A DNA stretch of 64,000 nucleotides from Thermodesulfovibrionales bacterium (lineage in GTDB: Bacteria; Nitrospirota; Thermodesulfovibrionia; Thermodesulfovibrionales; Dissulfurispiraceae): positions 1 through 64,000 of the forward strand of contig JAGUWD010000020.1 in the NCBI GenBank assembly GCA_020062545.1, written 5' to 3'. The notes under the pieces were generated by a model. That model searched no databases and had not been told where the DNA came from. It saw only the letters and a program-made list of their open reading frames with translations. Made by a program: the position numbers and the translations under genes. Below are positions 39,541 to 40,857 of this stretch, piece by piece. Every line of letters starts with the position of its first letter. The stretch's first letter is position 1.

Positions 39541-39582
39541 AAAAAATTGGAGTAACAGGGTTGCTTTACACCCCATTACTCC
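39541..39582 (-). terminator. intrinsic terminator after the Cys-rich peptide gene
   Basis: On the minus strand GGAGTAA-TG-GGGT, a short loop, ACCC-TG-TTACTCC, then AATTTTTT. The stem is about 11 bp and is followed by a six-T run at 39546-39541. It ends the radical SAM-peptide transcript 22 bp past the peptide stop. The 8-bp units ACTCCGAC ACTCCATT ACTCCATC at 39579-39602 form part of it. Confidence 0.8.
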
Positions 39583-39603
39583 GACACTCCATTACTCCAT
39601 CGA

Positions 39604-39666
39604 TTAGCAGGAACCTTTGCACTTGCAGGTGGTTGATCCCTTCTTGGATACCTTTCTTATAACCAT
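39604..39666 (-). CDS. 20-residue Cys-rich peptide, putative RiPP precursor
   Basis: The reading frame MVIRKVSKKGSTTCKCKGSC followed by TAA is preceded by an ideal ribosome-binding site (GGGAGGTG, 7 bp before ATG), so it is almost certainly translated. The N-terminal half is basic, the C-terminal half has three Cys in CKCKGSC. It starts 51 bp after the stop of a radical SAM/SPASM enzyme gene on the same strand and is followed by a terminator. This is the layout of a ribosomally made, post-translationally modified peptide with its maturase. I cannot assign it to a named family. Confidence 0.75.
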   Translation of the reverse strand: MVIRKVSKKGSTTCKCKGSC

Positions 39667-39695
39667 ATCGACACCTCCCTTTCATAGGGTTAATC

Positions 39696-39712
39696 CAGGG
39701 CTTCATGCCCTG
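39696..39712 (-). other. intercistronic hairpin between maturase and peptide genes
   Basis: CAGGGC/GCCCTG with a five-base loop. No T-run follows on the minus strand, so it is not a full terminator; it may stabilise a processed peptide mRNA or attenuate transcription. Confidence 0.5.
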
Positions 39713-39717
39713 ATATT

Positions 39718-40857
39718 TTATGTCTTCATTATATCATACCCATAACATTTGTAAAGGTCTTTTTTTCTGTTGTCTCCTGCTCGAAATCTGCACCCCCCCC
39801 TGCACTCATCAATAAACCTGCATGACATATCAGAACATTCCAGTTCATTTAACTTCACAGGCATTATCCTTTCCCATGACTTCCTCAGCCCCTCACTGAT
39901 ATTGCCAACAGGCGTGTGAGAATAAAAAGCGCATTTACATATATTCCCATTGGCAAGCACAGACACGAGATGCAGGCCGCATGCAAATCCTTCTCCTCCA
40001 CCGTGCAGTCCCCCGCCAAAGCCATAATTAAGGTATTTTCCCGCTATTTCCGGTGGAACCTGAAAAATATGGTTTTCCTTTAAATTGCCTGAAACACACG
40101 GCACATCCACTGTCCAGTCCTTGATCCCGATTTTTCTGAATATATCAGCCATCTCATCGAATTCATCGAGATTCTTTCCATGAACCATTGTAGCTACCGA
40201 GACACTAATTCCTGCATCAATTGCTTCGCGAATCTTCTTCATTACTATTTTATATGTGCCTTTCCCCCTTATTGCTTCATGCCCGCGTTCCATGCCATCA
40301 ACGCTGAACTGTATCTCATCCGCATTAAGTCCCTTTAAAACTTTTTCATTTAACAAAAGGCCGTTTGTAAAAAGTATCTTCCTGAAATTATATTCGGGCA
40401 ATAATGTATTGATTTCATTAAAATGACTGTGCATCAAAGGCTCCCCTCCTGTTATCAGAAGGCGCAGCCCCTGCATCTCTTCGAACTCATCAAGAACAAT
40501 CTTTATTTTATCAGGGGAAATTTCATTATTCATGGGCTTTCCTATATAACAATGCCCGCATTTAAGATTGCACTTATCAGTAATCTGGAGTTCGAGATAC
40601 CTCAATGAAGGGACAGGAGATTTTGCAAGCACTGGCCTTTTAGTGTTGACAGCTTCTTTGGTCAATATCCCTTCCGAAAGGCAATAATCAATGAATCCGG
40701 CATCTGCATTGTCAATACACCCTTCAGGAGTTGAGCACTTTTTCAAAAACTCAAAGGCATTGTCGTCCAGCTCGTAGAGTTCGTCTCCCTTTATATCATA
40801 AACAGAAGGTGTTTCAAGCCACTTCAGGACAAACCCGTCTGAAAGATAATATCTCAT
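39718..40857 (-). CDS. radical SAM/SPASM peptide-maturase-like protein
   Basis: 379 residues. Residues 1-85 look like a small winged-helix (PqqD/RRE-like) region (VYDIKGDELYELDDNAFEFL). The radical SAM motif is CNLKCGHC at about 107-114, then LITGGEPLMH and FSVDGMERGHEAIRG. The SPASM region has Cys in FACGLHLVSVLANGNICKC, CSDMSCRFIDECRGGCRF and a last CYGYD, enough for two auxiliary clusters. Such enzymes install thioether or other crosslinks in short peptides. The Cys peptide encoded 51 bp downstream is its obvious candidate substrate. Divergent from nagZ with only 36 bp between the starts. Confidence 0.82.
   Translation of the reverse strand: MRYYLSDGFVLKWLETPSVYDIKGDELYELDDNAFEFLKKCSTPEGCIDNADAGFIDYCLSEGILTKEAVNTKRPVLAKSPVPSLRYLELQITDKCNLKCGHCYIGKPMNNEISPDKIKIVLDEFEEMQGLRLLITGGEPLMHSHFNEINTLLPEYNFRKILFTNGLLLNEKVLKGLNADEIQFSVDGMERGHEAIRGKGTYKIVMKKIREAIDAGISVSVATMVHGKNLDEFDEMADIFRKIGIKDWTVDVPCVSGNLKENHIFQVPPEIAGKYLNYGFGGGLHGGGEGFACGLHLVSVLANGNICKCAFYSHTPVGNISEGLRKSWERIMPVKLNELECSDMSCRFIDECRGGCRFRAGDNRKKDLYKCYGYDIMKT

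Follow-up and report, generated by a model that had tools for sequence, protein, structure and literature searches.

A conserved 20-residue cysteine peptide and its radical SAM/SPASM partner as a probable new RiPP family of the Nitrospirota

Introduction

The closest described counterparts of the system reported here are the SCIFF (ranthipeptide) maturases, exemplified by CteA/CteB and Tte1186, in which a small cysteine-rich peptide is encoded beside a single enzyme that combines an RRE with radical SAM and SPASM domains. SCIFF peptides occur in most members of a large lineage of anaerobes, the Clostridia, and are not diversified in the manner of antimicrobials. They bear a threonine near the cysteines; CteB joins Cys to Thr, and ranthipeptide enzymes link cysteine to Thr, Asn, or Asp (PMC8326336). 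Two further maturases, the sactisynthase SkfB and the streptide maturase SuiB, are built from an N-terminal RRE, a radical SAM barrel, and a C-terminal Twitch or SPASM domain, with SkfB having a one-cluster Twitch domain and SuiB making a Lys-Trp bond. The mycofactocin (MftA/MftC), ACGX, GeoRSP, and WgkB systems likewise couple a SPASM maturase to a short target. The RRE is a winged-helix domain composed of three strands followed by three helices (PMC12710340), and the canonical SPASM domain displays its seven cysteines as CX9-15GX4C-gap-CX2CX5CX3C-gap-C (PMC6231123).

A preliminary description of the window, by which we mean the whole 64,000-nt stretch of DNA that was analysed, had noted an intact SPASM enzyme followed by a 63-bp gene with a strong ribosome-binding site and a terminator. 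On the basis of the comparative analysis presented below, and in the absence of biochemistry, we consider it highly likely that this peptide and the radical SAM/SPASM enzyme constitute a dedicated enzyme-substrate pair, defining a new RiPP family of the Nitrospirota that is found mainly in Thermodesulfovibrionales. As in SCIFF systems, a small cysteine-rich peptide with a threonine near its cysteines accompanies one RRE-radical SAM-SPASM enzyme, is widely carried in its host lineage, and shows no antimicrobial-like diversification. The new peptides do not qualify as SCIFFs, having three cysteines in 19-20 residues rather than six in about 45; moreover, the spacing of the SPASM cysteines differs, the two genes often act in trans, the hosts are Nitrospirota rather than Clostridia, and the enzyme exceeds no NCBIfam cut-off.

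Results

An unannotated 20-codon gene lies 3′ of the enzyme gene

The features of the locus are collected in Table 1. The preliminary description of the sequence proved correct: the enzyme gene is intact, its product possesses both the radical SAM and the SPASM cysteines, and the short gene with its ribosome-binding site and terminator is located 3′ of it, with a gap of 51 nt between the enzyme stop codon and the peptide ORF. The peptide falls below the size accessible to routine gene finding and its gene is unannotated; searches of NCBIfam and Pfam with the 20-mer returned no match.

Table 1. Features of the enzyme-peptide locus, given as positions in the window
Feature	Position	Strand	Details
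Radical SAM/SPASM maturase, 379 aa	39718-40857	(-)	Intact; PF04055 80 bits against a cut-off of 29.5
N-terminal RRE-like domain, residues 1-82	40612-40857	(-)	Predicted; modelled alone, pLDDT 86; structural matches
Peptide gene promoter (sigma70-type)	39728-39755	(-)	TTTACA-16-TATAAT with TGn; 11/12 match
5′ UTR hairpin 1	39696-39712	(-)	CAGGGC-AUGAA-GCCCUG; compensatory changes at all six pairs, 33 UTRs
5′ UTR hairpin 2	39677-39689	(-)	CCCU-AUGAA-AGGG; pairs with part of the Shine-Dalgarno; 91.7% of cells paired, 33 UTRs
Shine-Dalgarno	39673-39682	(-)	AAAGGGAGGT; just 5′ of the peptide ATG; conserved across the UTR list
Precursor peptide gene	39604-39666	(-)	63 bp, ATG to stop; 20 aa, MVIRKVSKKGSTTCKCKGSC, plus stop
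Intrinsic terminator of the peptide transcript	39549-39582	(-)	13-bp stem, then T run

The peptide is widely conserved and under protein-level selection

If the peptide is a substrate of the enzyme, short ORFs with the same conserved end should recur near homologues of the enzyme, a check that the preliminary description had put forward together with its converse, the existence of a different conserved substrate gene. Of the 30 best homologous loci from related genomes, 23 have, in the same position 3′ of the enzyme, an ORF of 20 aa that ends alike. Overall, 112 loci were assembled, and no alternative gene for a conserved substrate was found next to the enzyme.

To define the distribution of the peptide, we scanned one genome per species (~85,000 species) for the pattern T-C-K-C-K-[GSR]-x-C-stop, which retrieved 115 stretches. 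About 108 of these carry the full peptide, and their labels are nearly all Nitrospirae/Nitrospirota, Thermodesulfovibrio, Magnetobacterium, or similar; assignment to the order Thermodesulfovibrionales rests on these locus labels and on the presence of Thermodesulfovibrio in the same order. The hosts form a large group of mostly oxygen-avoiding bacteria that includes sulfate reducers and magnetotactic species. Two records that contain the peptide are named for other lineages, Candidatus Wolfebacteria (L099) and Nitrospira japonica (L089), and are probably mis-binned or misnamed Thermodesulfovibrionales contigs. Seven off-phylum matches (L076, L090, L092, L100, L115, L124, and L138) either have no ORF or do not show the N-terminal consensus, and we discarded them as chance occurrences. 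The same judgement was applied to the sole match among viral contigs, which has a stop codon just upstream and no N-terminal consensus, and to a CKCKSCC sequence without this consensus in genome G029.

When the scan stretches were combined with those from related genomes, 112 distinct loci were obtained in which the start codon occupies the same place, 99 encoding 20 residues and 13 encoding 19. Their consensus is M-x-I-[KR]-K-V-S-K-K-x-[AS]-x-T-C-K-C-K-[GS]-S-C; the 19-residue forms, mostly from Thermodesulfovibrio, read MIKKVSGKAMPTCKCK[GS]SC. None of the 112 peptides contains Trp, Tyr, or His, and only four contain Phe. Some genomes carry two copies of the gene (L142; G118, at L207 and L221; G127, at L208 and L222), and the copies in G127 have diverged ends, TCKCKESC and LCKCKSSC.

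The reversed motif has no match in either the 100 related genomes or a sample of 296 genomes from the phylum, as against 70 and 85 for the true motif, which places the peptide far beyond chance expectation. Over codons 2-12, which were not used in the search, pN/pS is 0.35, and over codons 13-20 it is 0.03, with the caveat that the latter codons were selected by the search pattern. Among positions 1-12, all outside that pattern, Ile3 is retained in 98 of 99 and Lys5 in 96 of 99 sequences while synonymous sites change freely. The locus thus meets the expectation for a RiPP of a small precursor gene that is under protein-level selection and conserved together with a maturase.

The enzyme joins an RRE-like domain to radical SAM and SPASM domains

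The enzyme is organized as an RRE-like region (residues 1-82), a radical SAM core (about 85-260), and a SPASM domain (about 290-375). In 43 aligned homologues, the CX3CX2C cysteines that define the radical SAM superfamily (Cys 96, 100, and 103) are invariant, as are the seven cysteines expected of the SPASM subfamily (293, 309, 341, 346, 352, 356, and 371), which include CX10GX4C and CX5CX3C elements. The spacing of one element nevertheless deviates from the canonical arrangement, in that CX2C is replaced by CX4C in 41 homologues, including the window enzyme, and by CXC in 59, and is retained in only 3. The CXC form of this element is known from PqqE and SkfB (PMC6231123). The spacing of this cysteine pair varies by lineage within one orthologous family, as is evident from a comparison of L156 with L079.

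A full-length AlphaFold2 model (mean pLDDT 90.6, pTM 0.90) gives as its best full-length structural matches the SuiA-bound form of SuiB (Z 26.3 over residues 2-377) and SkfB (Z 25.7 over residues 7-365). The three enzymes share the order of their domains, yet identity to either maturase is only 15-20%, and the seven SPASM cysteines set the window enzyme apart from SkfB. The preliminary description had suggested that an RRE be sought in residues 1-85, and the model of residues 1-82 does appear to fold like one. Its matches are mostly RREs, led by those of TbiB1 (Z 7.0), lasso B1 (Z 6.7), and PqqD (5sxy, Z 5.5) and extending to TigE, MccB, LynD/TruD, SuiB, and CteB; the values for TbiB1, lasso B1, PqqD, MccB, SuiB, and CteB span Z 4.5-7.0. 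Single matches are modest (best Foldseek E 0.016, Z up to 7), but it is informative that nearly every top-ranking entry is an RRE. DSSP assigns strands and two clear helices to the model, and we scored the winged-helix fold as present despite the lack of a clear third helix.

No family in NCBIfam release 20 scored above its cut-off with the window enzyme (best 84.6 bits against 650), and the 43 homologues recovered the same distant families, with a best E of 1.7e-33 (bit scores not shown). The mycofactocin, ACGX, GeoRSP, and WgkB models are among the nearest, although the window enzyme reaches only 56-85 bits against their cut-offs of 265-650, aligns with them over the radical SAM core alone, and is associated with other motifs and gene sets. 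Mycofactocin itself would require a Val-Tyr end in the precursor and an MftC score above the cut-off, whereas the peptides lack Tyr and the score is 74.6 bits against 265. A PQQ system would require a precursor with Glu and Tyr and other pqq genes, and we found no Tyr in the 112 peptides and no pqq gene among the conserved neighbour clusters. In addition, the RRE, while resembling PqqD in predicted fold, is fused to the enzyme. As far as sequence comparison and structural modelling can reveal, the enzyme resembles characterised maturases only in its fold and its radical SAM core.

Enzyme and peptide co-occur even when their genes are unlinked

Enzyme orthologues are cleanly separated from paralogues in 100 related genomes (E < 1e-100 versus 1e-23 or weaker). 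With the strict motif, 68 of these genomes contain both enzyme and peptide, four the enzyme only, and two the peptide only. Three of the four enzyme-only genomes carry a variant of the peptide (TCKCHSSC or TCKCKNSC), and one of the two peptide-only cases is a chance match. Variant ends recovered from genomes first scored as enzyme-only comprise CKCKESC, CKCKNSC, CKCHSSC, and VCKCKSSC. In the final table, both partners are present in 71 genomes and neither in 27, with one genome (G084, 86% complete) having only the enzyme and one (G043) only the peptide (Fisher 4e-22, uncorrected for relatedness). Six families (f1, f2, f3, f4, f9, and f13) each include genomes with the pair and genomes without it, so that shared presence and absence recurs within families and does not reflect a single split. 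In the even sample of 296 genomes from the phylum, 98 contain the enzyme, 85 the strict motif, and 83 both, before variants are taken into account; several of the remaining genomes belong to another group, in which peptides ending in TCKCKESC or VCKCKSSC are mostly encoded directly beside the enzyme. The enzyme profile was searched in Nitrospirota only, while the search for the peptide motif extended beyond this phylum.

The two genes are mostly 50-65 nt apart where they are linked. In about one peptide locus in three, those of Thermodesulfovibrio among them, the enzyme is encoded elsewhere in the genome, and the pairing therefore cannot be put down to synteny alone. The partnership first suggested by adjacency in the window is thereby upheld genome by genome. 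In G043 and G302, which are nearly complete, the peptide is present (L192 and L271) and no orthologue of the enzyme was found; these cases may be due to gaps in the assemblies, to a different enzyme taking over, or to the peptide having a function without modification. An apparent enzyme pseudogene in G054 was rejected, since the stop coincides with the alignment end and the gene is intact.

The peptide gene has its own promoter-like site and a structured 5′ UTR

Two elements absent from the preliminary description precede the peptide gene. The first is a promoter-like site embedded in the 3′ end of the enzyme gene, within the codons for its conserved C terminus (DLYKCxxYDI). Of the 69 linked loci, 50 have a site matching at least 10 of 12 positions upstream of the peptide, against an expected 1.45; among the 40 unlinked loci the count is 15, against an expected 2.05. 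Because the promoter sequence at linked loci partly encodes this conserved C terminus, the unlinked loci provide the cleaner evidence.

The second element is a 5′ UTR with hairpins bearing AUGAA-type loops, which are found at 57 of 111 loci, versus 1.9 in shuffled sequences. An alignment of 33 UTRs contains 57 compensatory cells versus 15.5 in shuffles, with a covariation score of 0.59 versus 0.20, and the signal collapses when the pairing is slid. As these UTRs were chosen for the presence of hairpins, the inner pairs are inflated, but the variety of pair types is not. A covariance model (R1) recovers the window UTR from its own genome at 39664-39712 (E 4e-14) and locates the element mainly at the peptide gene, essentially once per genome; a wider regulon was rejected on account of this single copy. 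No Rfam family was found with the 5′ UTR. The 5′ UTRs of Thermodesulfovibrio have three such hairpins. In G040, a similar hairpin pair without the peptide (L265 and L266) falls within repeated sequence, present at two contig ends, that may be a mobile element. Since hairpin 2 pairs with part of the Shine-Dalgarno, translation of the peptide is probably gated by the UTR, an inference drawn from predicted pairing.

The enzyme is the only common neighbour of the peptide gene

Across loci, the only neighbour that the peptide genes have in common is the enzyme. In the family to which the window belongs, the peptide gene is followed by TPR, ispE, prs, rplY, and pth. In about 38 loci the next gene is a same-strand TPR gene; many other loci have SOD, rubrerythrin, or nitroreductase there, in convergent orientation. 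At least one SOD, rubrerythrin, nitroreductase, or thiol-peroxidase gene lies beside 40 of 113 peptide loci. These oxidative-stress genes are mostly convergent and occur in families other than that of the window (L086, L125, L091, L135, L190, and about 35 further loci), and their clustering may be inherited synteny. SOD was rejected as a functional partner, being only weakly associated with the enzyme genome-wide (present in 55 of 72 genomes with the enzyme and 16 of 28 without). No transporter or protease recurs at the peptide loci examined, extending to these loci the lack of such adjacent genes that had been remarked upon in the window.

Discussion

Taken together, these observations indicate that the enzyme very probably modifies the peptide, with the chemistry, product, and function being inferred. 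In the mechanism we propose, residues 1-12 (MxIKKVSKKxAx) would serve as a leader held by the RRE domain, and the C-terminal octapeptide TCKCK[GS]SC would be the core in which modification takes place. The cluster bound by Cys96, Cys100, and Cys103 would generate a 5′-deoxyadenosyl radical that abstracts a hydrogen from a residue of the octapeptide, after which Cys14, Cys16, or Cys20, perhaps while ligated to a SPASM auxiliary cluster, could close one or more thioethers onto the conserved T13, K15, K17, S19, or A/S11. The peptide's own promoter may supply substrate in excess of the enzyme, with the hairpin UTR gating translation.

The absence of Trp, Tyr, and His, together with the rarity of Phe, counts against aromatic crosslinking as seen in streptide, PQQ, mycofactocin, and the cyclophanes, and in particular against a Lys-Trp bond such as SuiB makes, while the three invariant cysteines accompanied by invariant Thr, Lys, and Ser fit thioether formation. 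Ranthipeptides and sactipeptides are characterised by a thioether from Cys to the beta/gamma or alpha carbon, respectively, of an acceptor residue, and the peptides contain residues compatible with such links. By exclusion and analogy, we lean modestly toward thioether chemistry on the peptide cysteines; epimerisation or another modification of Cys or Lys may occur instead and is not excluded. The residues three positions before each cysteine are A/S11, T13, and K17, an arrangement that recalls the Asn-x-x-Cys spacing of NxxcA and is offered as a suggestion only.

Near-universal carriage without export genes suggests an internal role rather than an antimicrobial one, an argument that has also been made for SCIFFs (PMC8326336). 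The lack of an exporter, protease, or signal peptide, combined with such carriage, points to a product that probably remains intracellular and serves as a housekeeping peptide or cofactor. Any involvement in oxidative stress or the handling of metals is no more than hinted at.

The alternative that survives best overlaps with our main reading and is a possibility we regard as real but lesser: the peptide could be consumed in the formation of a small cofactor or metal chelate, as PqqA is for PQQ and MftA for mycofactocin, with trimming left to general proteases. PqqA is a precursor of about the same tiny size as the new peptide. Vertical and nearly universal carriage, a very short precursor that has not diversified as antimicrobials do, and the absence of an exporter or dedicated protease would all be expected of such a pathway. 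Mycofactocin provides the precedent of a RiPP-derived redox cofactor (PMC8326336), and the CXC spacing of most homologues resembles that of PqqE and SkfB (PMC6231123). Nonetheless, no equivalents of PqqB/C/D/F or MftB/E/F are conserved and no dehydrogenase is linked, the peptide is devoid of Tyr, and the constancy of its length, at 19-20 residues, speaks for a product in which most of the peptide is preserved.

It is also conceivable that the peptide is an unmodified mini-metallothionein or thiol buffer and that the enzyme acts elsewhere in the pathway. CKCK--C patterns occur in metallothioneins, and CxCxxxC with flanking lysines has the appearance of a thiolate metal site; the oxidative-stress genes beside peptide loci and the two genomes that keep the peptide without the enzyme could be cited in the same sense. 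We judge this unlikely, as it leaves unexplained both the one-to-one co-occurrence with an RRE-bearing maturase, including shared absence in six families, and the fixed order of enzyme and peptide, and the presence of SOD is only weakly associated with the enzyme. The peptide might instead assist the enzyme as a small regulator or cofactor, for instance through cluster delivery or activation; co-occurrence and adjacency would fit this, as they would any physical partner. We consider such a role very unlikely given that RRE domains bind precursor leaders (PMC12710340), that the full-length match of the enzyme is to peptide maturases, that a separate strong promoter suggests an excess of peptide, and that G043 and G302 retain the peptide without the enzyme. 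Finally, the short Cys-rich ORF, the terminator directly 3′ of it, and the structured 5′ UTR might suggest an attenuator in which ribosomes stalled at Cys codons control the terminator, but this idea is largely refuted by the lack of a constant downstream gene (many loci have a convergent gene and nothing to attenuate), by conservation of Lys, Ser/Gly, and the N-terminal KKV with free synonymous change, and by the tracking of an unlinked enzyme, which a leader would not do.

We therefore return to the dedicated enzyme-substrate pair as the preferred reading. Our literature search found no paper that mentions the motif or a RiPP of Thermodesulfovibrionales. As a new RiPP family, the system stands out for a peptide length fixed at 20 residues, genes that are often in trans, a SPASM spacing that varies, and a structured leader. 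It offers a clean case in which a radical SAM substrate was found through co-occurrence with the two genes unlinked, and it illustrates a RiPP precursor preceded by a leader of covarying hairpins. A precursor of just 20 residues whose core octapeptide is fixed brings direct production and testing of both enzyme and substrate within reach, and mass spectrometry of the natural product is possible in cultured strains of Thermodesulfovibrio.

The strong conservation of an unannotated gene over a large bacterial group implies a function that cells rarely give up, and the peptide looks like a previously unrecorded modified peptide, probably with a housekeeping role. More tentatively, and as a possibility for which we claim no more than limited support, the modified 20-mer or its C-terminal octapeptide may function inside cells throughout Thermodesulfovibrionia as a previously unknown peptide cofactor with metal or redox activity, a counterpart of PQQ, mycofactocin, and the clostridial SCIFFs whose translation would be gated by a new cis-acting RNA element.
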